Source: a virus. Taken from it: 45,407 bases of DNA. Location of the stretch: the IMG/VR virus record IMGVR_UViG_3300021197_001525, positions 1-45,407 of that record; one strand, written 5' to 3'. The notes below the pieces were generated by a model. That model did no database searches, was not told the origin of the DNA, and was given only the letters and a program-made list of their open reading frames with translations. The position numbers were made by a program, and so were the translations under genes. The stretch's first letter is position 1, and each line of letters starts with the position of its first letter. Of the stretch, positions 8,981 through 45,200 are shown piece by piece.

Positions 8981-10270
8981 ATGAAAGAAATAGCAGAAAG
9001 ATTAGGAAAAGCAGTTGAAGAGGTCGAGAAAGACTTTGAAGAGTTTGTGAAGAAGCAGTACCCAGAGTCATGGGAAGACGCGAAAGGCAAACTATCGAAG
9101 ATTGATAGTGACGATTTGGACTTCTTCAGGGAAGCATTTAGGGTGAACAGGGTTCGTCGTAGAGGTGGTTCAGGAAAGGGTGATGATTACGTCGGCATGA
9201 TTGTCGGTCATGTCTCTCTTAGGGACTTGATGTCCAAGCAGAGAGACTTAGCCATCGAACAAGCAGAGATAGACCTGAACAACGTGCTTAGGCACGGCAT
9301 TAGACCATACAACAACGACAACACAGTCAGTATCGGTCGAGCGCACTACGCCGAAGGCTCATGGAAAGTATCCAATGCCAACGATCAGGTGATTCACACG
9401 GAACAAGGCGAGGAGTCAGACATACCCGTCTGGGCCATCGCCGTCCCAAACAAGTCATACTACATCGCGCTCTTAGGTGCGAATGGCCCTAAGAGGGCTA
9501 CCTCGTTGAAGAGAGAGTGGCTGTTCATTGGCAACACAGCAGAGAAATTCCTCACGGAAGGCCCTCTGCCACCTATGCGGTTAGAATGCTCATTCGATGC
9601 AGCAGATGTCCACTTGCAGATGAACAAGCCCATCTCGTTCAAGGCAGAGGCAGGAGAGTCGTACTTCAACCCGAACGAGGCAATTCTCAAGGCCAACAAC
9701 ATTGATCCTTCATACGGACTAGGTTGGATTCCTGACAAGCAGAAGTCCACGGCAGAGTCGATGTTCGCCCCCGATCAGTATCTCTCGCAATTCATGGGAT
9801 TCGTCCCCGACCTATCGAGAGTCATGGACTACTACGAGGATAACAAGGAATACTCAGAGAAGACAGGGAGGACATACGGCCCTCTGTTCTGTCTCCGAGG
9901 GGTTGTGGACTACATCGACCACGAGGGCGAGGCAAATCGCTACTCTGATGGTGGATACAGGCATTCTCTTACTCTGAGCAGCGCGGCTCTTAGGAGAGAT
10001 GGAGAGAATAACCTCTGGGTCAATGTCAGCAGATACCTAGTCAATGACCATCACGCATTCCAAGGACTGAAAGTTGATTCATGGTGTGACTATACCGCAG
10101 GGACACAGGTGTTCCTCACCGTGCGCTCTAGCACATGGGAGTCCGACATGGGTGAGACTCGCCTCAACCTAGATGCACTCAATGTATGGCCTGTACCCAA
10201 GAGGATACTATGGGGTCAGGATGCGGCTGATGACGATTTGAGTGGCCTAGATGGATTCAGGAGTGATTGA
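8981..10270 (+). CDS. Candidate ssDNA-binding (RPA/OB-fold-like) protein, 429 aa
   Basis: It opens with a helical, acidic segment (IAERLGKAVEEVEKDFEEFV). A basic linker RRRGGSGKG follows, then the strand-rich YVGMIVGHVSLRDLMSKQRD and further beta segments (TVSIGRAHY, IPVWAIAVPNKSYYIALLGA, LWVNVSRYLVND, GTQVFLTVRSS). A beta-rich protein of this size upstream of a Sak4-like ATPase, a Cas4-like nuclease and a primase suits a viral RPA-like protein that coats single strands. I see no diagnostic motif, so the call rests on fold pattern and neighbours. AAGGAGG lies 20 bases before the ATG, which is too far for a usual SD. Confidence 0.4.
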   Translation: MKEIAERLGKAVEEVEKDFEEFVKKQYPESWEDAKGKLSKIDSDDLDFFREAFRVNRVRRRGGSGKGDDYVGMIVGHVSLRDLMSKQRDLAIEQAEIDLNNVLRHGIRPYNNDNTVSIGRAHYAEGSWKVSNANDQVIHTEQGEESDIPVWAIAVPNKSYYIALLGANGPKRATSLKREWLFIGNTAEKFLTEGPLPPMRLECSFDAADVHLQMNKPISFKAEAGESYFNPNEAILKANNIDPSYGLGWIPDKQKSTAESMFAPDQYLSQFMGFVPDLSRVMDYYEDNKEYSEKTGRTYGPLFCLRGVVDYIDHEGEANRYSDGGYRHSLTLSSAALRRDGENNLWVNVSRYLVNDHHAFQGLKVDSWCDYTAGTQVFLTVRSSTWESDMGETRLNLDALNVWPVPKRILWGQDAADDDLSGLDGFRSD

Positions 10271-10272
10271 AT

Positions 10273-10512
10273 ATGAAGTTAAGTGATCTTAGAAACTGGC
10301 AGCAGACCGACTCGCATAGAGTAGTACGAGGGATATTCCTAGACTTCGTTGCATGGTTCAGAGCCGGAGATAACCACTTGGGTGTGTCTGAGGACGACAT
10401 ACACAACGTCGCGGCCTTGCTGACACACGCACAGGTTGCCCACTATGAGGCCAATATCAACACCAAGACCAGAATGCCACTACACAACGACCCTGCGACA
10501 GGTGAAGAATAA
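10273..10512 (+). CDS. Hypothetical protein, 79 aa
   Basis: MKLSDLRNWQQTDSHRVVRG then FLDFVAWFRAGDNHLG, with helices thereafter and an NDPATGEE end. Unknown. ATG 10273 has CAGGAG 9 bases upstream. It sits between the candidate ssDNA-binding protein and the Sak4-like ATPase with a 1-base overlap (TAATG), so it is probably part of the same recombination unit. Confidence 0.55.
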   Translation: MKLSDLRNWQQTDSHRVVRGIFLDFVAWFRAGDNHLGVSEDDIHNVAALLTHAQVAHYEANINTKTRMPLHNDPATGEE

Positions 10513-11738
10513 TGACCGGGTTCATGGACAAGTGGGAGAAGAAGGACACGTCCGAGGAGGCGACGCCCGCTCCGAAAGAGGAGAAGGCAGCAAAGGTCTT
10601 CGTTGAGGAGGGTGACTACAATCCGAACCTATCAATCGAGGAGCAGGAATTGAGGGATATCGAAGCCGCAGGTGGAGATGGGTATAGCGGCGCAGGTTCG
10701 TCGCCCGCAGAGTTTCCAGTAGAAAAGGAGGAGAAGAAAGTGACGAAGAAGAAGTCGAAGAAAAAGGCAGCACCCCAGAAGGAAGCATGGTTGGAGAAGT
10801 CCGCCAATCCCGCATGGGCGCAGATTGAGGCCGCGAGGACTAAGAATCTCATCAGCGAGAAGACATACTACGTTCTGATGGGAATATGGGGGCCGCCCAA
10901 GTCTGGTAAGACGGGCGCGGTTCTGGATAGCCTCACGCAAGAGGAGAAGGAGAACGGTGCTGAGATTCACCACTACGACTTCGATCTAGGTGGAGAGACA
11001 ACCAAGTCAGCACACCACGAGGGAGACACCAACATTCTCGTCCTCAATCCATGGGTGATGACTACGACAGCCGCCAGCCGTGTGCCATACGACTACCCTG
11101 CTACGTTCCAGAACACCATGGACTACCTAAGAGCAGCCGTCGAGATGGCGAAGGGGCAGATTGCTTACTATGGTGAGCATGGTGAGATGCCAAAGCCGTA
11201 CCTGAAGACAGTCATCTTCGATGGAGCCGATCATTGGTTGCACATCTGTGAGACTATCATGAAGGTGGACGACCTCAAGTTAGGGCCGGACGGCATAGCC
11301 GTAGCCGGAAAGGATGCCACTACTAAGATAGGACGATTCAATTGGAACATCCGAAAGAGCCGTTATAACTCGGCTCTAACCGCGTTGCAGGAGTTGTGCC
11401 GTCTTGGTGTGCATTGCTACATCATCACGCACGGAAAGACCGCATACGATAGCGGAGGCAACGAAATCATAGGTGCTGAGACACCACATTGGCTTAAGGA
11501 CACAGAAGGCTGGCTACAACAGGTCGCCAAGTTTGAGGTGTCTGAGGAGAGGGATGAGAAAGGTGAATTGACTGGAATATCAGAGTCTCACGCAATCATC
11601 ACACACAATCGCACCAGCCTGAAGTCCTCTGGCAGGGTCAACGTCTTCCGACGTGACCCCAAAGGAGGAGAGTGGTACGGCTGGAAAGGTCTTAGGGACG
11701 GTTCTTTGGATCACCCTGATGACCGCGTTGAGGAGTGA
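10512..11738 (+). CDS. Sak4-like RecA-fold ATPase (single-strand annealing/recombination), 408 aa
   Basis: Residues 1-95 are a charged, low-complexity Lys/Glu/Pro leader (KVTKKKSKKKAAPQK). The ATPase core follows: Walker A GPPKSGKT at 127-134, strand IHHYDFDLGG at about 152-161, and Walker B KTVIFDGADHW at 232-242. A later ITHGKTAYD and ITHNRTS would supply sensor or loop residues. This compact P-loop layout matches phage Sak4/RadA-like recombinases (AAA_24-type), which act with an SSB and a RecB-family nuclease, both of which flank it here. It probably promotes strand annealing or exchange during viral replication. A related P-loop ATPase with another role is the main alternative. Confidence 0.7.
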   Translation: MTGFMDKWEKKDTSEEATPAPKEEKAAKVFVEEGDYNPNLSIEEQELRDIEAAGGDGYSGAGSSPAEFPVEKEEKKVTKKKSKKKAAPQKEAWLEKSANPAWAQIEAARTKNLISEKTYYVLMGIWGPPKSGKTGAVLDSLTQEEKENGAEIHHYDFDLGGETTKSAHHEGDTNILVLNPWVMTTTAASRVPYDYPATFQNTMDYLRAAVEMAKGQIAYYGEHGEMPKPYLKTVIFDGADHWLHICETIMKVDDLKLGPDGIAVAGKDATTKIGRFNWNIRKSRYNSALTALQELCRLGVHCYIITHGKTAYDSGGNEIIGAETPHWLKDTEGWLQQVAKFEVSEERDEKGELTGISESHAIITHNRTSLKSSGRVNVFRRDPKGGEWYGWKGLRDGSLDHPDDRVEE

Positions 11739-15197: not shown

Positions 15198-16646
15198 ATG
15201 ATGAACGAAGGCACGGCTAGTGGTGTAAGAGAGTGGAAGGATTACAGTCTCGTCAATTCACCTTATGAGGGCAGCAATAACCTCCGTCAGTATGTCGAGA
15301 GGTTCGACACTCTGTCCTTCTTCAACCAGTATGCTGGCATCCTCTCTTACTTCTTTGTTCTCGGTCAGTTATGCGCTCCCTATGTCCGCATTCCCATTCA
15401 TGGTGCTTACATCGACAGCCGCCTTCACGTCTTCTGGATACAGGCATCTCGTTCTGGCAAGTCAATAGCGTATGAATTCACGGCCAAGATACTGAAACTG
15501 TGCGGCATAGAAGCAGAGAAATTCAGCGCGGGTTCCGATTCAAAGTTGATTGGTTCGGTGATAGAGGTTCCCAAGGTCGATGAGGATGGGAAGAAGGTAT
15601 CAGGAGTTGACTTTGAGATTATCCCCGGTCTGCTCAATGGATACAAGACCCTTCTCTTCGATGAGGGCAGCATACTACTAGACGATTCCAAGGCATACTT
15701 CAGCCAGAAGATACTATTCCTCCAACAAGCCATGGCTCCCATCGGTAGCGAGACTAACGTCCTTGTCAATCACTTGAAAGGAGCGTCGATATACACTCCA
15801 TCAGGTATCTCTCTGTGGGCTACTACTTTCCCACCCAAGGACATTATGCACCATGTCCTAGAGAAGGGATTCTTCCAGAGAGTATTCCTATATCAGAATG
15901 ACATCAATCTTGAGACTAGGCAGACTACAAGCGAACATCGAATGTCTGGTGTGTATGTCCCTGTACCCGATCAAGTATGGTCTTACGAGGGAATAGCCGA
16001 ATGGATAGTGGGAATCAGGGACGAGATAAGAGACAGGTTGTTCACCGTAGCGGGCATAGATCAAGAACAATGGGACAGCATGGCTGAAGAAGAGAGAGAG
16101 AAGATTGCTGTTGACCATAGCCACATGATATTCACGATAGGCCCAAACTATCATGCTGCCCTTCTTAGTGCTGTTGATGATTACTATGCTCTAGTCAAGA
16201 CAGTATCGGACGACAACGTGAGAGAAACCGCCATCTCTTTCATCCCCAATGTCGAGAATTACACGATAATATTCGGAAATATGATTGCTGCCACCATGCA
16301 CTCGGCAGTAGTGACCGCCGAGCATATTGCCATGGCTTCTGAAATAATCTATGACAATCTCCACAACCTGATTATCTGGTTGGAACAGAAGCGAGACTTC
16401 AAGGCGTCCAAGCAACGACAAGCCGATCTCAGAGCATGGAAACAAGCATTCAACGCCTGTAAGAAACAAGTGCATGACAGGACGAAGAAGGAAGTAGTTC
16501 GTAAGACGGAGTTAGAAGGGAGATATGCTGCTTTCAATGCTGTTAGCGAGAAGACCGCTCAAAGAAGACTAGACAAGTTGGTCGATAACAGACTGGTAGT
16601 CAAAGTGAAAGAAGGGCGCAACGTATTCGTTGCCTTTGAGGTGTGA
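15198..16646 (+). CDS. P-loop ATPase, candidate replicative helicase, 482 aa
   Basis: Residues 80-90 (WIQASRSGKSI) hold a Walker A variant in which the first Gly is replaced (QASRSGKS), and KTLLFDEGSIL (150-160) is a Walker B with acidic DE. Long helical stretches follow. The last 80 residues (TKKEVVRKTELEGRYAAFNA, then TAQRRLDKLVDNRLVVKV) look like a winged helix. The order of a P-loop core then a DNA-binding wing, next to a primase and nucleases, suggests a helicase of the DUF3987 or D5/MCM-like type. I cannot decide between these. A packaging role is unlikely given the neighbours. Confidence 0.55.
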   Translation: MMNEGTASGVREWKDYSLVNSPYEGSNNLRQYVERFDTLSFFNQYAGILSYFFVLGQLCAPYVRIPIHGAYIDSRLHVFWIQASRSGKSIAYEFTAKILKLCGIEAEKFSAGSDSKLIGSVIEVPKVDEDGKKVSGVDFEIIPGLLNGYKTLLFDEGSILLDDSKAYFSQKILFLQQAMAPIGSETNVLVNHLKGASIYTPSGISLWATTFPPKDIMHHVLEKGFFQRVFLYQNDINLETRQTTSEHRMSGVYVPVPDQVWSYEGIAEWIVGIRDEIRDRLFTVAGIDQEQWDSMAEEEREKIAVDHSHMIFTIGPNYHAALLSAVDDYYALVKTVSDDNVRETAISFIPNVENYTIIFGNMIAATMHSAVVTAEHIAMASEIIYDNLHNLIIWLEQKRDFKASKQRQADLRAWKQAFNACKKQVHDRTKKEVVRKTELEGRYAAFNAVSEKTAQRRLDKLVDNRLVVKVKEGRNVFVAFEV

Positions 16647-17341: not shown

Positions 17342-17481
17342 TGCCTTGGATCTGTGACAACCGAAGATGTAACAGGGAAATCAAGGGATTCAGGAATGGT
17401 CGAACTTTATGCCATATATGTCGTAGAGTTCGTAAAAGACAAGAAGAAAAGAAGACGTGGAACGGTAAGTCTAACGCTTAG
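17341..17481 (+). CDS. Small Cys/Arg-rich zinc-binding protein (46 aa)
   Basis: CDNRRCNREI and LCHICRRVRKRQ give a C-x4-C plus C-x2-C zinc site with a very basic C-terminal half. It overlaps the exonuclease stop by one base (TAATG) and is the last plus-strand gene. Its end overlaps the convergent minus-strand gene by 11 bases. Confidence 0.55.
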   Translation: MPWICDNRRCNREIKGFRNGRTLCHICRRVRKRQEEKKTWNGKSNA

Positions 17482-17713
17482 TCTCTTGACGACTACCACC
17501 CGCACCTAGTTGTCTCCTCATGGAGGGGCGCACGTTGCCACGGCCCTTCTGTCGAGAGTATATGTTACGAGTTCTCCTTCGCTTGTTCTTCCGGCTCTGA
17601 TTCCATGCCTTGGCCTTGCCAGCCCTCTCGGCCCTTCCAGTAATGGTGTTCTTTGAGTACCCTCTGAATTTCCCTTTAATTACAGAGTCCCAAATGGCAT
17701 CAAACACACTCAT
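17471..17713 (-). CDS. Small basic protein with FxxxW motif (80 aa)
   Basis: Begins MSVFDAIWDSVIKGKFRGYS, followed by a strongly basic, Gly/Arg-rich remainder (RKNKRRRTRNIYSRQKGRGN). The basic part suggests nucleic-acid or virion-interior binding. Its N-terminus carries the F-x3-W pattern shared with four other proteins in this cluster. ATG 17713 overlaps the stop of the upstream zinc-ribbon gene as ATGA. It is the last gene of the minus-strand unit. Confidence 0.6.
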   Translation of the reverse strand: MSVFDAIWDSVIKGKFRGYSKNTITGRAERAGKAKAWNQSRKNKRRRTRNIYSRQKGRGNVRPSMRRQLGAGGSRQETKR

Positions 17714-17886
17714 GCTTCCACCTTTAACCTTGGTTTTGCTTTCTTCCATACGGCATTGCACATGGGACATTCCCATAGAAAGATTCTATCTCTCGATCCA
17801 GCATAGAAACCATTGATTCTGATAGCGAGGACGCGATTCTCACATTTGGGACAGTCTTGACTAATCTTATCCCGATAATGTTTCAC
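17710..17886 (-). CDS. Zinc-ribbon miniprotein, GTG start (58 aa)
   Basis: Begins at GTG 17886 (VKHYRDKISQDCPKCENRVL), with a Tyr/Arg-rich loop, then LWECPMCNAVWKK. Two CPxC knuckles 25 residues apart make a classic zinc ribbon, close in style to the plus-strand ribbon at 5414. GGTGA lies 6 bases before the start, and the stop overlaps the next ATG as ATGA. Confidence 0.55.
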   Translation of the reverse strand: MKHYRDKISQDCPKCENRVLAIRINGFYAGSRDRIFLWECPMCNAVWKKAKPRLKVEA

Positions 17887-17890
17887 TTTT

Positions 17891-18091
17891 TCACCCGACT
17901 CTTAAATCAGACCATGCTACATTGAAAGATTTCTTTAAATCGCTCGGATGCTTTCCTTCTTTTTTGAGATCTTTGTAGCATTGACACATGGGTTCTTTGG
18001 AAGAACATTTCATGATGCCTTTTTTCATGCAAGCACAAGGATTGCTTTCTGTTGCCCCACAACAGCAACTTTTTCTTTTCAACTCAGCCAT
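17891..18091 (-). CDS. Cys-rich small protein with C-terminal AW motif (66 aa)
   Basis: Nine Cys lie in residues 9-38 (SCCCGATESNPCACMKK, KCSSKEPMCQCYK), enough for two metal sites. After a Lys-rich hinge it ends KKSFNVAWSDLRVG, the F-x-x-A-W motif shared in this cluster. ATG 18091 overlaps the upstream stop as TAATG and is preferred to an upstream in-frame start at 18103. Confidence 0.6.
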   Translation of the reverse strand: MAELKRKSCCCGATESNPCACMKKGIMKCSSKEPMCQCYKDLKKEGKHPSDLKKSFNVAWSDLRVG

Positions 18092-18558
18092 TAGCACTTC
18101 CACCTTCTTCTAGCGGCCTTGCCTCGTTCTCCCTTCCAACCTCTGCTTCGGGCGCAGAAGGACTTCTTTCTTGCCGCGTCTTTGCCTTTCGGATTACTAC
18201 TCGTCACAGGTGCTTTGAGTTTCGATCCTGTGGCTTTGTTGTATTTCCTTCGACCCTTTGCGGTTAGACCGCCACCCTCTTTGACGGATTGTTTCTCTCC
18301 CCTGCCAACGGATAGATTCGGCCCTGCCTTGCTTATGATGCCATTAAGAGTAGTGCAAACGCCACAGCCACAATCATCGCTGGTCAGTTTGTCCCAATTT
18401 TTCTTATCAGGATAATCTTTATCGCCCGGTTTGGCAGTTTTTTCACCTCTCTCTCTCTTGGCGTGTATATTTGCCCAAAGACCGCGTTTCTTGCCTTTAG
18501 ACAAATCCCATGCAATGCTAAACGCTTCACTCATGGGTATTACTTGTGAGCCAATCAT
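18091..18558 (-). CDS. Basic marine-phage-type protein with AW motif, 155 aa
   Basis: Three parts are visible. EAFSIAWDLSKGK (11-23) is the cluster's F-x-x-A-W motif. GLWANIHAKRERGEKTAKPG is a basic segment ending near GDKDYPDKK. The C-terminal half has GGGLTAKGRRKYNKATGSKL, then KSFCARSRGWKGERGKAARR. From memory, the last part resembles a small family frequent in marine tailed phages (I think DUF6321), with unknown role. The first ATG has no SD; ATG 18534 (MSEAF) is an alternative that puts the AW motif at the extreme N-terminus. A structural, DNA-touching role is plausible. Confidence 0.6.
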   Translation of the reverse strand: MIGSQVIPMSEAFSIAWDLSKGKKRGLWANIHAKRERGEKTAKPGDKDYPDKKNWDKLTSDDCGCGVCTTLNGIISKAGPNLSVGRGEKQSVKEGGGLTAKGRRKYNKATGSKLKAPVTSSNPKGKDAARKKSFCARSRGWKGERGKAARRRWKC

Positions 18559-18573
18559 TTATTTTTGTTTTGA

Positions 18574-19662
18574 TTAACCTGTATGTCCAGCATGGACATA
18601 GGTAATCTTCACATGAGTTGGCGTTCCTGTATATCCTAACGACCCATTGACCGTCACTACATTTGCCGAGATAGTGAAGTCTAGTCCTTGGATGAGCGTG
18701 GCAATGAAACGTGGAGTTCCAGATTTATACATGACAACCTCGACAAGTTTAGTCGTTGCTTCGTCTTGAGAACCAAGAGGACTGTATTCTAATGTGAATG
18801 TTTTCTGTGAACCCACATAGGTGTCAGTCAATATGGATGTCCGATGTGTGGGTGTTATCTGATACGCACCGCCGGTTCCTGATTGGTTGACCCTTAAATC
18901 GGATTGATAGAACAGGTGTGTGCCTCCGCTACCATCTGGGTGATCTCCAAGCCCTGCCGGGTCACGAGCAAAGAGGAATCCTAAATCTGTTATGGGTAGG
19001 CTCGCTGTGTTGTCTCCAGAGATGAAGTTGTTAGCGGGCATGGTAGCATTACCTGCTGCATTGACTAGGGATGCCAAGGGGAAGGGGCCGGGACGGACAA
19101 ACACTCTTTTGTCCTCAAGGGAGGCTATCCTTACCTCGCTCCCCGCATAGTGGAGTCTGGCTGATGCTAGGACGATGGTCTGGCGGGCGAGGTGGCCGGA
19201 GGGGGATTGGGGGTAGGCTCCGCTCGACGTGTCGATGCTGGCCCCGTAGGTGAAGCCGATGTTCCCCGTTAGGGTAGGGTCGAAATACACCAAGAGGATT
19301 CTCTCGTGGTTGGCAGAGAGGGTGGGGGCCGTGCTGCTGTTGTATGTGGCATACTGAGCCGTGACCGTGGCGGCGTTGAGGGTCTGCGTCCCTATGGAGT
19401 AGAACATCCCATCCACCACCACCGTCCCCGCCGCGATGACGATGGACTGGTTGCCGGAGGTCGAGCAAGCGCAGTTGCCAGTCTGGGATGCGTTGCGCGA
19501 CCCAGAGTTGTAGTCGTTGCTGACGATCGGGATGACCCCATTCATCAGGCCCCTCTCATTGAGGTTGGTCAGCGTTGGGCTTGCGAGGACATCCGTATCA
19601 CGGAGGCCGTCCGTCTGGTATGACTGAAAGGCTGTCTCATGTCCCTGCCCTAGCCCTACCAT
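18574..19662 (-). CDS. Tail/baseplate-associated structural protein, 362 aa
   Basis: The protein is Thr/Ser/Gly-rich and beta-rich with few charges (SIVIAAGTVVVDGMFYSIGT, ERILLVYFDPTLTGNIGFTY), ending in IATLIQGLDFTISANVVTVN and an Ig-like THVKITYVHAG. This composition and its place after the giant tail genes fit a fibre, spike or baseplate component. Cys appear as CACS. ATG 19662 overlaps the upstream stop by one base. No receptor-binding motif is certain. Confidence 0.6.
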   Translation of the reverse strand: MVGLGQGHETAFQSYQTDGLRDTDVLASPTLTNLNERGLMNGVIPIVSNDYNSGSRNASQTGNCACSTSGNQSIVIAAGTVVVDGMFYSIGTQTLNAATVTAQYATYNSSTAPTLSANHERILLVYFDPTLTGNIGFTYGASIDTSSGAYPQSPSGHLARQTIVLASARLHYAGSEVRIASLEDKRVFVRPGPFPLASLVNAAGNATMPANNFISGDNTASLPITDLGFLFARDPAGLGDHPDGSGGTHLFYQSDLRVNQSGTGGAYQITPTHRTSILTDTYVGSQKTFTLEYSPLGSQDEATTKLVEVVMYKSGTPRFIATLIQGLDFTISANVVTVNGSLGYTGTPTHVKITYVHAGHTG

Positions 19663-19859
19663 CACTTTTCACTTCCAGTTTGTTCTTTCACTACACTCCA
19701 TGCATTATCAAACGATTTAGACACTTTTTCATAATCCACATTTCCCGGTGCGTGTTCTAAACAAGGGCCACAACAATACCTGCGTGATTCATCATCATAG
19801 ACAAGATACTCTGCCTCTCCTGTGCAATCTTCATCAATATCAACCTCACATTTCGTCAT
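19662..19859 (-). CDS. Small Cys-rich acidic protein with AW motif (65 aa)
   Basis: MTKCEVDIDEDCTGEAEYLV then RRYCCGPCLEH gives a candidate zinc site (C4, C12, C29, C30, C33). It ends VSKSFDNAWSVVKEQTGSEK, the F-x-x-A-W motif of this cluster. ATG 19859 is chosen over TTG 19862, with GGGGGTG upstream. Confidence 0.6.
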   Translation of the reverse strand: MTKCEVDIDEDCTGEAEYLVYDDESRRYCCGPCLEHAPGNVDYEKVSKSFDNAWSVVKEQTGSEK

Positions 19860-19870
19860 CAATTACACCC

Positions 19871-19894
19871 CCTGTCAGGACTGACAGGTTTTTT
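19871..19894 (+). terminator. Hairpin with T-run, terminator-like on the plus strand
   Basis: CCTGTCAG-GA-CTGACAGG (19871-19888) is a perfect 8-bp stem with a 2-base loop, followed by six T (19889-19894) on the plus strand. Genes here run on the minus strand, so it would stop antisense transcription. Read on the minus strand it lies just upstream of the SD of the gene starting at 19859 and could instead be an RNA processing or pausing site. The gap 19863-19927 holds no gene. Confidence 0.5.
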
Positions 19895-19927
19895 CCGAGA
19901 TTTGGGCGGCGGCGAAATTTTGGACAT

Positions 19928-20269
19928 TCAACGCACCTCCATCAGGACATCCACCCTTATCTCGTTCGTGCTGTTCTTGTTGATGGGTAGGAAGGTGGCT
20001 CGGTAGGATGGAGTGTCGAGGACGGTATCCCCATGCAGGGCTACCTCCTTGATTGCCTGTGATGATGTCTGCTGAGTGTCGAAGTTGGCTGTGATTGCTA
20101 TTGTCCTGTCGTCTATCTTGGTGACTTGGGGAGTGACTGTGATCTGTGGCGTCCCTGCTCCCCCGTCCCTGCTCGACGCATCCCCTCCGCTTGAGCCGAG
20201 GGTCATGCGTGTGACTAGGGTGGACAGGTGGTCAGTCAGGGCGGACTTGAGTGAGTCTAGTATAGGCAT
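19928..20269 (-). CDS. Probable tail structural protein, 113 aa
   Basis: A helical start (MPILDSLKSALTDHLSTLVT), a Gly/Ser/Asp-rich loop, then beta strands (PQITVTPQVTKIDDRTIAIT, KEVALHG, NEIRVDVLMEVR). The layout resembles small phage tail-fibre or collar proteins in which an 'RM-x-hydrophobic-G' segment precedes a beta domain with a closing IRVDV-type strand. It lies among structural genes and overlaps the upstream stop as TAATG after a GGAGGGGA SD. Confidence 0.5.
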   Translation of the reverse strand: MPILDSLKSALTDHLSTLVTRMTLGSSGGDASSRDGGAGTPQITVTPQVTKIDDRTIAITANFDTQQTSSQAIKEVALHGDTVLDTPSYRATFLPINKNSTNEIRVDVLMEVR

Positions 20270-20736
20270 TACAAATCCCCTCCACCAATTTGTGTCGTCA
20301 TGAATCCCCTTTCGCTATCCAATCTTTTTGATTCAGGGAAATGTTCGGCATGAAATGTCCCTCTCATGTCCGCGAATGATGCTTCATCCAAAGCAGATTC
20401 GATTTCCTCCTCGCCAACAATCCCTGCTTCCATCAATGCTCTGACTAGACTCGCCCTCTCTAGTTCGTCCCTGACATTTTCAAGACCATGATGATAACTT
20501 AGGAATGCCCCTGCTTCTTTGCCTTCGTGCATATCTTCTCCGAAGTCTCCCACTTCAAATCGTCCTGCCTCTGTGGGTATTCCTAATGATTTGTCATGTG
20601 TGTGCATCATAGGAATCTTTGAACCATGAAAAGCCAAGACCGCATTTGGTTCCGTGTATTTTGCCGGAGGATCGGATGGTCGTGGTATTCTGAAATCGAC
20701 ATCCTTGACAATAGACCAAGCCTGTTCAAACACCAT
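20269..20736 (-). CDS. Hypothetical protein with N-terminal AW motif, 155 aa
   Basis: Opens MVFEQAWSIVKDVDFRIPRP, the F-x-x-A-W motif at its extreme N-terminus. The rest is His/Asp/Glu-rich and helical (GLENVRDELERASLVRALME, GEEEIESALDEASF) and ends in a Gly-rich IGGGDL. No enzyme motif recognised. ATG 20736 overlaps the stop of the giant hub-like gene (TGATG) with GGAGGTGA upstream. Confidence 0.6.
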   Translation of the reverse strand: MVFEQAWSIVKDVDFRIPRPSDPPAKYTEPNAVLAFHGSKIPMMHTHDKSLGIPTEAGRFEVGDFGEDMHEGKEAGAFLSYHHGLENVRDELERASLVRALMEAGIVGEEEIESALDEASFADMRGTFHAEHFPESKRLDSERGFMTTQIGGGDL

Positions 20737-23700
20737 CACTTCACCTCCACATACAAGCCCTTGCTGCTGCCGATGGCTCGCGCCCGCTTGTTCCCGTCAC
20801 GAACTCCGATTTTCCCCATCCCATTAGTGTGTTTCGCCCCTATAATGAATCCTGTATTGTTCACAGACCTCACGAATACCTTGTGGACGGCTACAACATT
20901 GATGTTGCTGGATAGGGATACCTCTGCTACCTCCACGACCTTGCCCGCTAGTTCGTCAAGCGGTGCTGAGTTTCCTGATACAGCCTGTAAGTCAGAGAGG
21001 ATTCCCTCTATCCCCTTGTCATACTGAGCGATGATGAAGTCACTCTTCAGATTCGTATAGTCGTGAGTAGCCTCAAACACCATGTATTCTCCACGGAGGC
21101 CATGGTTGGGGAGATTAATGTTGACAATTTCTCCGGGTTGTATCATGGATGCTTTGATTGCGCCCTTGATATGGATGAGTGGCGCACCGTTCTCTGCCCT
21201 TGCTAGTATTGATTTGGCTAGTTTGAGTGCTTCGTTGTTGGTCTTGAGTCCGGGTATCTCTTGCCTCAATGTCCTGACTAAGTTGCTAGAAGCACCCTTG
21301 CTGGCCTCGTTCTTCATGCGTTCCAAGTCCTTGACGACTACGAACACCTTCTCGTTCCGAGCGAGTTCATCACCGACGATTACTATCTCGTTAGGAGAGT
21401 CGTACATCTTGCTGGCAGACACGCTGTTGATTGCACTACCGACACCGAAGGTCATGCCTCTATTGATGAACGTGTTAGAAGAGTAAATCATTGAGCCATC
21501 CTTCTCATTGATTAGTTGCTTGCCGTCTATCTGTGTCAGGTTTCTGATTATCTCCATGACGTTCAGGCCCCTCGTCTTACGAGCGGTGAATATCGCTGAG
21601 TGGTCGGAGACTAAGCGGAGGGAGGGGTGGGCGTCGAGGGTGGAGGACACCTCCCTGTCCTTGCCTAGCAAGGCACTCGTCGGCGTCACGTTGAAGCCCG
21701 CTAGATCCGAACCGGAGTCGTTCAGTAGCATGAGAGCGGCATCGCTAGTCCTCACACCGATGTAACCAGTCTGTCCCATCAGCACGGGGCCTTGTGTCAT
21801 ACCGAAGTCAGTCAGGCTGTCGGCGTCTATGTTCCTGAACAGCAGGAATGTGGATAACTCGTCCTTCTCCACTCCCGCTATCCTGAGTGGCGTGTTCTGG
21901 GAGTCGAAGAGATATGGTGGGAAGTAGGAGTCAGATATTTCCTTGCCGTCGAACCTGATTGCTGTTATCGAGGGAGAGGATGTGGATATGAGGGCAGAGG
22001 TCTTACCATTGTCGATGACTATCGGTCGTTGGTTAATCATCATGAAGTCAGTTGGATCGTACTCTAACAGCCCCCTGTATCCTAGTGTGGTCTGCTTGAC
22101 CGCGCTGTTGGTGACATCGAATCTATTCCATATAGCAGAGGCTTGCTTTGCTAGTGTGATTGTGTTGTCTATGTATGTGGGCGATACCAGATGAGGTATG
22201 GTGAGGGGTCTGATGTCAGAGAGTGCCGATGGGCTAGTGAGAGTGGTGTATCTGAGTATCTGTCCCGTCAAATCAGAAACTCCTGTGCTATTGGTTATCC
22301 CTGTGAGTTTATTCTTCGTCTTGCCCGTATATACCACCTTACCCTTGCCGACTATGAAGAGGGTTCCAGCAGAAGGTAGCATGGATGCATCCTCAAGGAA
22401 CACGTTGTTGTTGGAACCAGCGTGTTTCGTTACTTTGAACTGAGGGTATATCCTCATCGAGGAATCCATGTGAGTGTGAGTCACGGCATCAGGGGTCGTC
22501 TGCTTAACGAAGTCCCCGCTAATGCCTGTTCCTACTGCGTTGTAGCGAGTCTCTGATTGGTTGAGGCTCTCACCCCCACCGGGGTGTGTCGTCTGCGAGT
22601 ATCGTGCTTCTATCTCTGGGTTGAATTGTCCATCGACAGTCTTGCGAACCGCATCCGACTTGAAGAATTGGAGCATGGATGCGCTAGGCAGCAGGTGGAA
22701 CACGGTATCATGCTCGTTAGCATCGGGCCATGTCATCTCAAACACACCCTCTGCCGTACTAATCAAATCCAATGAGCCAAGTGTCTTCTCCATGTCTGCC
22801 TCAAAGACCCCGTATCTATTGTCTCTGGTGAAAGCCTGATACTCAAGGTCAGCATCACCATACGATGACCTAGCACCCATCAACCAACCATCCTGTTGGA
22901 GAGTCGATGCGAAGCCAAACAGTTTGAGTGGCCTCACAGGTCGAACGAAGTAGTCAATGGACTTGCGTCGCTGGTTGGATGTAGTAGCATTCCCGTCTGT
23001 CCCGTATATGTCAGTAGTCAGAGTCCCTTCCTCTGTGCGATTCAGATACGTCTTCCTCAAGATGTACGTCCCACCCCACGGTGGAAGATCCCCGCACCCT
23101 CGCACCGCCCAATAGTCCATGCCATGGCTGTCTGGTGTTGTGAGGACTGGTGGGTTGTTGGGCAAAGTGACTGTTGCCAACACCACTCCACTCGATCCAC
23201 TACCACTCATCGTTATGGTCGGTGCGGTGGTGTAGCCCGAACCACCTGCGCTTATGCTAACTGCTGCTATTGGCCCTGTCGATGCTAGAACTGCCGTGAC
23301 ACTCGTTGGGGCAGAACCCGTTAGGTTCCCTGTTGGCAGGGTCACGGCTGGCACAGATGTGTATCCCGACCCGCCGCTAGTGACGGTGATGGCAGTAAGA
23401 CTCCTTGTTGCCGTATGGGTGTCTAGGCTCGCAGTAGCGGTGGCATTGCCGCTTGATATGCTCGCAGCAGGGACAGAAGTGTATCCATCGCCTTGATTCG
23501 TCACAATTGCATAGGCAACAGAACCAGTATTCGCTAGACCCACATATATGTTAGCCGCATTTGCTCCAGCCCCGAACTCAAGAGGGGCTGAGGGGGCAAC
23601 AGCGTCTATGACAAAGGTATGACCGCTCGTGTATCCCACACCAGAAGTGACAGTACCCCAACTCGTGACATAACCACCAGAATCAGTCGTCGCACCCGTT

Positions 23701-44487: not shown

Positions 44488-45200
44488 CAGACGAACCTCC
44501 CCTTCTGTGCATTGTAATTCTGCAATACCTCTGCCGCAGATAGAGCCTTCTTGTATAGTTGGATGCAACCCATGTGGCCTGTCCATTGACTAGAAGTGGT
44601 GTATCTACTCCCTATCCTCATGTTCCTGCCGAATGTCTCAGTTGCGGAAGAGGATTGGGTCAGCGAAACCTCCGCACCATTGAGGTACATCTTGCCGCCA
44701 CTACTATCGGAAGTCACCACTAGGTAGTTCCACACATCTCCGAATATGGATGGTTGAGCGACATAATTTTCAGTTAGAGTACCACCGTGAATGTATTCTA
44801 TATCACTCTCCCAATTGATGTTTCTGTTTTGGTAGTTGGACAACTGCCAATTACCACCATCTGCCCTGCAATCGAAGAAGTAGTGGGTGTCCCCGTTGTT
44901 CTTGTTGAACCACAGACACCAAGAAGCGGCGGAATGCGCCCCCAAGTCATCCTCTATGTTCATCCCTCTGCCACCTGCGAAGTTGAAGACTCCGCCTTTG
45001 ATGCTGGAATAGGCAGGGAAGTTGGCTGTGTTGGGAGTGTGCGCTCCACTACCGGGAGTACCACTAGCACCTGTAACAGAACTTCCACTCACCAAGCAAG
45101 TCGCAGTAGTTTCTCCGCTTGTGAAGCACTTCGGATTACCTGCATCCAACAGGAAGACTATCTCATCGGTCACTATGTTAGCACCATTGTGGAATGACAT
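44487..45200 (-). CDS. LamG-like tail adhesin, 237 aa (paralogue 2)
   Basis: Starts MSFHNGANIVTDEIVFLLDA, with GVFNFAGGRGMNIEDDLGAH, SAASWCLWFNKNN, WNYLVVTSDSSGGKMYLNGA, and closing KKALSAAEVLQNYNAQKGRF. The jelly-roll order matches its neighbour at 43774, but the sequences differ widely except at the ends. GGAGGAGG precedes the ATG. Cys pairs (CFTSGETTATC) may form a disulfide outside the cell. Confidence 0.65.
   Translation of the reverse strand: MSFHNGANIVTDEIVFLLDAGNPKCFTSGETTATCLVSGSSVTGASGTPGSGAHTPNTANFPAYSSIKGGVFNFAGGRGMNIEDDLGAHSAASWCLWFNKNNGDTHYFFDCRADGGNWQLSNYQNRNINWESDIEYIHGGTLTENYVAQPSIFGDVWNYLVVTSDSSGGKMYLNGAEVSLTQSSSATETFGRNMRIGSRYTTSSQWTGHMGCIQLYKKALSAAEVLQNYNAQKGRFV

Follow-up and report, generated by a model that had tools for sequence, protein, structure and literature searches.

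Five minus-strand open reading frames (ORFs) between positions 17471 and 20739 of the IMG/VR virus record IMGVR_UViG_3300021197_001525, a 45.4-kb stretch that was analysed at its full length and is referred to here as the window, each encode a protein with a short peptide, the tag, in which Phe and Trp are four residues apart. The original prediction, made from the sequence alone, had placed such a motif at or near the N-terminus of three small proteins and at the C-terminus of two, and all five were found as written, on the minus strand and in those places; the coordinates given with it are the minus-strand start codons of the ORFs. ORFs were called with a greedy longest-ORF script.

Directly after a 2615-aa ORF of the tail module is the ORF at 20269-20739 (156 aa, start at 20736), an unassigned protein with the tag FEQAWSIVK (20704-20730) at its N-terminus. 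Further along the same strand, a Cys-containing protein of 66 aa (19662-19862, start at 19859) carries FDNAWSVVK (19686-19712) 16 residues from its C-terminus. The 155-aa protein encoded at 18091-18558 belongs to the DUF6321 family (PF19846, E 1.8e-16) and has an N-terminal tag (FSIAWDLSK, 18496-18522). In the Cys-rich 70-aa protein of 17891-18103 (predicted start 18091), FNVAWSDLR (17900-17926) is 11 residues from the C-terminus. The last, 17471-17776 (101 aa, predicted start 17713), has a variant tag near its N-terminus with Ile in place of Ala (FDAIWDSVIK, 17675-17704, as computed from the ORF), followed by a basic body rich in Arg and Lys. The untagged ORF at 17710-17886 on this strand, a Zn-finger-like protein of 58 aa with profile matches below the cut-offs, serves as an internal negative control. 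The carriers had been described as mostly Cys-rich or basic; judged by eye this holds for four of the five, and the protein of 20269-20739 is neither, so that the tagged set consists of one DUF6321 protein, one basic protein, two Cys-containing proteins and one that is unassigned. A weaker form of the motif proposed at 45200 (FEEAM) was dropped as a sixth tag, since the Trp is missing and no homologue of it is among the fetched sequences.

Whether random small proteins would carry the motif as often, a point raised in the original prediction, was examined by shuffling the window proteins. The motif F..[AI]W, which admits FDAIW, is present five times in the 38 proteins of up to 160 aa; the shuffled mean is 0.18 and none of 2000 shuffles reached five. 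Across all 59 window proteins the count is also five, with a shuffled mean of 0.89 and seven of 2000 shuffles reaching it. Two of the five window tags match the strict pattern and four match the loose pattern that was later used for the relatives.

The motif could also have been absent from homologues of its carriers. Distinct homologous ORFs of the fetched set, which is described below, were scored with the loose pattern, and a second count, given in brackets, leaves out the loci that the tag pattern had brought in. Tagged are 8/8 (3/3) homologues of 20269-20739, 5/6 (5/6) of 17891-18103, 13/16 (8/9) of 17471-17776, and 6/16 (4/11) of the DUF6321 protein of 18091-18558, the homologues of which in other phages bear different N-termini. 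The untagged neighbour at 17710-17886 has the tag in 0/20 (0/11) homologous ORFs, and for the fifth tagged ORF, 19662-19862, the fetched set contains no homologue. Two relatives have the basic body of 17471-17776 within longer ORFs, of 513 aa in the record G003 and of 594 aa in the record G004; the 594-aa ORF also matches a C5 DNA methylase weakly (PF00145, E 0.023, below the cut-off). A different stretch, KDLR[RD]WFKEKWVDVSRKDKDGKHPPCGR, is found near the start of several untagged homologues of 18091-18558 and of two homologues of 17471-17776 (in L197, L202, L207, L208, L232, L246 and G006), where it stands in the place of the tag, as if the two N-terminal modules were interchangeable.

Related sequences were collected as fetched loci (L) and as records (G). 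The first loci were fetched via the DUF6321 protein with six patterns, one of which spans the window's own tag. In a viral collection, a DNA pattern for M-x-x-F-[D/E and a few others]-x-A-W-x-x-V-K matched 94 stretches, and the 80 that were kept (L186-L265, with 142 exact matches) are biased towards the tag, having been fetched by it. Several of the 12 records counted below were chosen since their loci showed tags. For record sampling, 15 records were scanned with a DNA pattern, and 11 of the 15 were read whole or in part and their tags listed; matches were found in 11, on a single strand in each, and the backwards pattern gave none.

Scanning related viral genomes with a motif profile had been suggested in the original prediction, and the tag proved to be widespread in related marine tailed viruses. 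Five proteins are few by comparison, as a single record of a relative can have as many as 17 tagged ORFs, and these form runs of neighbouring genes. In four of the loci fetched through DUF6321 (L043, L045, L051 and L052), runs of five to eight adjacent ORFs each start with MTAFDRAWDLVK or similar. Without the tag-fetched loci, the strict pattern is present 81 times in 775 ORFs of the 12 records (11 of the 12) and 8 times in 739 ORFs of 56 other loci (7 of the 56), with no match in the reversed proteins of either set. In 70 loci of other DUF6321-bearing phages it is found in none of 1247 ORFs, nor in their reversed forms. Over all 158 sources there are 312 strict tags in 2301 deduplicated ORFs, none in reversed proteins and a mean of 0.15 in shuffled ones; the loose pattern gives 389 and 12 reversed. 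Two matches within tape-measure-like ORFs (L227 and L237) are probably due to chance. In the 12 records, where the late strand was assigned from head and tail genes, 80 of the 468 ORFs of at least 60 aa on that strand are tagged, versus 0/236 on the other. Of the 80 tag-fetched loci, some of which are parts of these records, 68 have one or more untagged genes in common with the 12 records, and eight of the remaining 12 are shorter than 2.3 kb. Against 84,980 cellular genomes the same M-x-x-F pattern had six matches, each with a bacterial title and none with an archaeal one; about seven are expected by chance, as estimated from the count of specified bases, and the pattern is therefore at about chance level in cellular genomes by this estimate.

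The tag consensus is [ST]-[AS]-F-[DE]-x-A-W-x-[VIL]-[VAT]-K. The search itself imposed F, W, K/R, and allowed sets at positions 4 and 8; positions 2 and 7 were not imposed and are D/E in 88/102 and V/I/L in 93/102 tags. Of the 312 strict tags, 278 are within the first 30 residues, 15 within residues 31-70, 2 within the last 30, and 17 are internal. After masking of the tag, 305 tagged proteins fall by single linkage into 114 homology clusters, 71 of them singletons and the largest a mixture of ADP-ribosyltransferase (ART)-like, peptidase-like and GNAT-like proteins. Codons vary synonymously at F, A, V and K among 299 tags. Tags of unrelated proteins are more similar within a source (0.394) than across sources (0.315; 833 within-source pairs, 0/2000 permutations), which would be expected if one receptor is shared; copying of tags within a genome would give the same result. 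The tag is a portable, protein-level, virus-specific feature of late proteins. In this respect the portable docking peptide of the original prediction is borne out, in that the tag is on many unrelated proteins, at varying positions, with free synonymous codons and, in the 12 records, only on the morphogenesis strand; docking is a matter of interpretation and is taken up below. One 690-aa ORF (L143:11020-13092, in record G002) has four loose-pattern tags, three of them internal and in similar contexts (SGDxFEDxW), suggesting that it may be a multivalent or multi-domain protein.

Few of the tagged proteins are recognised by Pfam, and tagged families were therefore examined singly. Among 97 tagged ORFs (E up to 0.01) the matches are DUF6321 (five), GP88 (four), a phage zinc-binding family (three), and D12 methyltransferase (two); among 114 cluster representatives (E up to 0.001) there are 15 families in all. 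ASCH-like and C5-methylase-like matches are both below the cut-off. In an alignment of 23 tagged proteins, picked by eye for an HGT motif, the His is invariant and the Gly and Thr are each present in at least 90 %. Its profile matches KptA/Tpt1 (E 3.6e-4) and DarT (E 0.028) in the PDB. In the AlphaFold2 model (predicted local distance difference test score, pLDDT, 73.7) the tag forms a separate helix at residues 3-11. The model matches Tpt1 (Z 10.2, 88 residues, 2.6 Å), with a Foldseek match to KptA at E 5.9e-4; structure matches with Z below 8 were treated as background only. This tagged family (that of L146:1098-1721) thus has an ART fold. Different tagged ART-like and GNAT-like genes are clustered at the single loci L252:4422-11723, L189:231-9930 and L256:2189-8272.

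Zincin metallopeptidases have HExxH plus a downstream Glu, and in 11 tagged proteins picked by eye for HExxH (alignment A5) a downstream Glu is invariant; neither this alignment nor a further one (A7) had a PDB profile match up to E 1. A kinase-like cluster (A6) has an invariant K93 and D177-x4-N182-x12-D195, and D-x4-N-x12-D type spacing is typical of protein kinases. A6 contains all six members of its cluster, A7 contains 14 of 17, and a fourth alignment, A4, contains 14 of 15. A kinase identity for A6 was not confirmed beyond this spacing, as it was borne out neither by the profile search nor by the model.

The setting of the tagged genes is best seen in the 108-kb record G004, in which the main tagged cluster (36-45 kb, minus strand) leads the late region. 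After it are a tagged 778-aa ORF (33-35 kb) and two tagged ORFs (21-24 kb) just before the terminase. Terminase, portal, S78 prohead protease, and SU10-type major capsid protein (MCP) genes are next in order, with a tagged 71-aa ORF (6.5 kb) after the head genes. The protease, or protease-scaffold, is at 9999-11321 and the terminase-adjacent ORF at 21416-23188; an ORF of 108 aa (15683-16009) and one of 294 aa are also among the conserved head proteins. Homologues of the window's tail ORFs follow across the record ends, and a pair of tagged ORFs (76-79 kb), of which one has the basic body seen in 17471-17776, closes the series. In several records the terminase-adjacent protein has an N-terminal tag or tag-like stretch, and in several it has W[TS][VI]V[KE].P.ANPF near its C-terminus. 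Before the prohead protease and adjoining it is a 1137-aa ORF (L144:11379-14792) with no Pfam match at E 0.01, part of which, by eye, resembles a DNA ligase adenylation domain.

In a phage collection, the MCP of G004 matches eight Haloarcula virus records and one Methanofastidiosa virus; for its protease, Haloarcula viruses rank first and 13 Vibrio phage records also match. We refer to the group as marine tailed viruses whose capsid module is of archaeal type. Magrovirus identity (Magrovirales, viruses of Poseidoniales) had been guessed from the layout. Magroviruses have a virus-encoded B-family DNA polymerase (PMC12999244), and none (PF00136) was found in seven records, including two of 107-108 kb, with 5 of 14 control genomes positive, a search that could miss one if the polymerase is divergent or the record incomplete. 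The group therefore lacks, as far as was found, the trait given for magroviruses, and this identity was not kept. Adrikavirales/Satyavativiridae are head-tailed Poseidoniales viruses with a halovirus-like MCP and replication possibly by the host (PMC13108676), a profile that appears to fit the group better. HVTV-1, which is among the nearest relatives by MCP, was rejected as a cultured relative sharing the tag, there being none in two 50-kb stretches. In HVTV-1, gene 115 (L284:16303-20244, 1314 aa, annotated 'zeta toxin') is in the head module between head assembly and prohead protease genes.

The DUF6321 family offers a parallel between the tag and a known packaging signal. According to two accounts (PMC9026906, PMC3012670), the T4 internal proteins IPI-III have short N-terminal capsid targeting sequences (CTSs); in IPIII ten residues suffice, residues 4 and 7 matter for targeting, and foreign proteins are packaged, and Alt is a packaged and ejected ART. 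T4 ipII and ipIII start with MKTYQEFIAEA and ipI with MKTFKEFTST. The DUF6321 homologue P-SSM7_194, of a T4-like cyanophage, starts with MKTYSQFIEE (more fully MKTYSQFIEEGKKKGLWDNIHAKRKRGE), and the window protein reads, from its ninth residue, MSEAFSIAWDLSKGKKRGLWANIHAKRERGE. Among 13 distinct DUF6321 N-termini, one has the tag within the 45 residues checked, and in L051 and L052 the tag is further upstream. Two others (L094 and L097) have a GFxKRA stretch; this helix-like GFxKRA...G stretch opens 3 of 10 ORFs in L094 (1327-4790) and 4 of 23 in L097 (8952-12170), DUF6321 included, and is apparently a second lineage-specific N-terminal tag. We know of no described function for it. A head, structural or terminase gene is annotated near DUF6321 in 7 of 10 phage stretches (S-CAM4, S-ShM2, P-HM2, S-CRM01, Sf-FS3, MED4-213 and HTVC031P); the DUF6321 genes are between scaffold and capsid genes in HTVC031P, the gene is beside the large terminase in S-CRM01, and it is one ORF after the small terminase in S-CAM4.

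We propose, with a probability of about two in three, that the tag is a prohead-loading signal, analogous to the T4 CTS and not homologous to it. This reading is based on the kinds of protein that are tagged, on the T4-CTS-like N-terminus of one DUF6321 homologue, and on the head-gene neighbourhoods of DUF6321 homologues (7/10). The same three points make the loading of cargo into the virion, as suggested in the original prediction, the best supported of the functions, on evidence that is indirect. The tag, F-[DE]-x-A-W-x-[VIL]-[VAT]-K, would be a portable amphipathic helix of nine residues that in most cases begins the protein but can also stand between domains or at the C-terminal end, and it would mark late proteins for loading into the prohead in these marine viruses by docking on one capsid-internal component, putatively a scaffold or protease-scaffold. 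The candidate cargo comprises ARTs, metallopeptidase-, acetyltransferase- and kinase-like proteins, DNA methyltransferases, and basic and zinc-binding proteins, which would leave the particle together with the DNA and take effect on the host immediately. Entry into the prohead, ejection, the receptor and proteolytic removal, if there is any, are what we infer from these patterns. With a chance that we put at even, the system may be an open delivery platform, in which one prohead docking site and one nine-residue tag suffice for any tag-gaining protein to be packaged and injected, tens of late genes are swappable injected enzymes, and DUF6321 has been given different loading tags per lineage (T4-like in the cyanophage, FDxAWxxVK here, GFxKRA elsewhere).

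A number of results weigh against prohead loading. In HVTV-1, over the two 50-kb stretches (2.3 kb of the genome being outside them), there are five F..[AISGV]W matches, none of them tag-like. The T4-CTS-like N-terminus is present in only 1 of the 13 DUF6321 N-termini, a second match to the CTS expression (L115) is internal and looks fortuitous, and in the 50 kb of P-SSM7 that was scanned no other N-terminal CTS-like match was found, with two weak ones at residues 15 and 19. No head gene is annotated near DUF6321 in 3 of the 10 stretches (P-SSM7, S-CRES3 and MaMV-CH01), and fewer than half of the homologues of 18091-18558 are tagged. No conserved residues follow the tag Lys among the listed tags, so no common cleavage site is seen and a cleavage consensus behind the tag was rejected. 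Along with the scarcity of Pfam matches, the GNAT likeness of an alignment of 14 tagged proteins is at E 0.13 or worse, the PDB profile search with A6 gave one match (E 0.76) that is not a kinase, and the model of A6 is poor (pLDDT 50.7).

Many tagged proteins look like enzymes for host molecules, and the tag might instead be a short linear motif for a host machine (polymerase, proteasome, sliding clamp, division or secretion), to which late effectors would be brought in the producing cell with nothing packaged. A groove on a host protein could well take up a short helical motif, and absence from the other strand also fits a late-acting host-binding signal. Host-binding motifs are often shared with host proteins, however, and in the 84,980 cellular genomes the pattern is near chance, none of its six matches having an archaeal title; phages that infect other hosts, moreover, have basic DUF6321 proteins with different N-termini encoded close to their head genes. 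We consider this explanation unlikely. Docking on another part of the virion (tail, hub, vertex or outer surface) or at a viral membrane-associated assembly site, rather than in the capsid interior, is given an equally small chance. The window's tagged genes do come after the tail module, and an amphipathic helix could bind a membrane or a tail protein, but most tagged genes of G004 and G002 are away from tail genes and ahead of head genes, and the conserved terminase-adjacent protein is tagged in several records. Enzymes with cytoplasmic targets would make little sense on the outside of the virion, and C-terminal and internal tags argue against a plain membrane leader.

It is very improbable that the tag has no docking role and is either what remains at the N-terminus of one old duplicated family or a signal in the nucleic acid where genes begin. 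There is clear expansion of some tagged families, with 40 members in one cluster, and tags within a source resemble each other. The 114 clusters that remain after masking are at odds with this, no single common ancestor being seen for the protein bodies, as are the C-terminal and internal tags and the freedom of synonymous change. Retention in the homologues of three window genes (8/8, 5/6 and 13/16, versus 0/20 for the adjacent conserved gene) likewise speaks against it.

No description of the tag was found in the literature search, which did not extend to two papers where a mention is possible, the first description of magroviruses and a 2025 paper on Poseidoniales viruses. A literal motif search gave unrelated text matches only, DUF6321 was not mentioned in the literature searched, and a word search of PMC10160649 gave no 'motif' and no 'N-termin'. 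If the tag does load cargo, it would provide a sequence rule for listing the particle-borne proteins of uncultured marine viruses, those acting before viral gene expression, a listing that otherwise requires virion proteomics. It would also carry the capsid-targeting principle of T4 over to viruses whose capsids are of archaeal type, account for the arrays of small, unrelated late genes as a set of effectors, and be an obvious candidate packaging tag. A general method would be to seek short lineage-specific peptides common to unrelated late proteins. Were the open platform to hold, the virion cargo of uncultured viruses could be predicted from the loading tags in their sequences.

Polyvalent proteins of phages and conjugative elements, which are thought to enter the host with the DNA, early in infection in the case of phages, include ART, zincin-like metallopeptidase, kinase, GNAT, and methyltransferase domains (PMC5512222). 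The repertoire of tagged proteins appears similar to the one given there, with ART and D12 methyltransferase supported, HExxH...E present without a PDB match, GNAT weak, and kinase by spacing. The domains of polyvalent proteins are, in that account, fused in one large polypeptide, whereas here they are mostly on separate proteins with a common nine-residue tag; the tagged ORFs are for the most part short, and no more than one domain can be recognised in each, exceptions being, for example, the 594-aa and 690-aa ORFs. The GFxKRA helix of L094 and L097 is like the tag in being an N-terminal helix-like stretch common to unrelated genes of one contig, DUF6321 among them, and differs in that its sequence is unrelated to FDxAWxxVK.

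In comparison with T4, the tag is, by sequence and by the lack of a strict N-terminal position, not a member of the CTS family. Its consensus has no similarity by eye to MKTYQEFIAEA, and it is not always an N-terminal propeptide, with 17/312 tags internal, 2/312 in the last 30 residues, and two of the five window tags C-terminal. The tagged viruses are of the archaeal-type capsid lineage and would have many more cargo families, and no cleavage consensus is seen in them. The two systems nevertheless have much in common. In both, a short terminal peptide is common to otherwise divergent cargo (here 81 tags in 12 records, and 114 clusters), with spaced aromatic and hydrophobic residues when compared by eye. 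Alt, an ART, is among the T4 cargo, and an ART family is among the tagged proteins; a prohead protease is encoded in the same genome, as S78 in G004; and one DUF6321 homologue bears a T4-like CTS where the present group bears its own tag.

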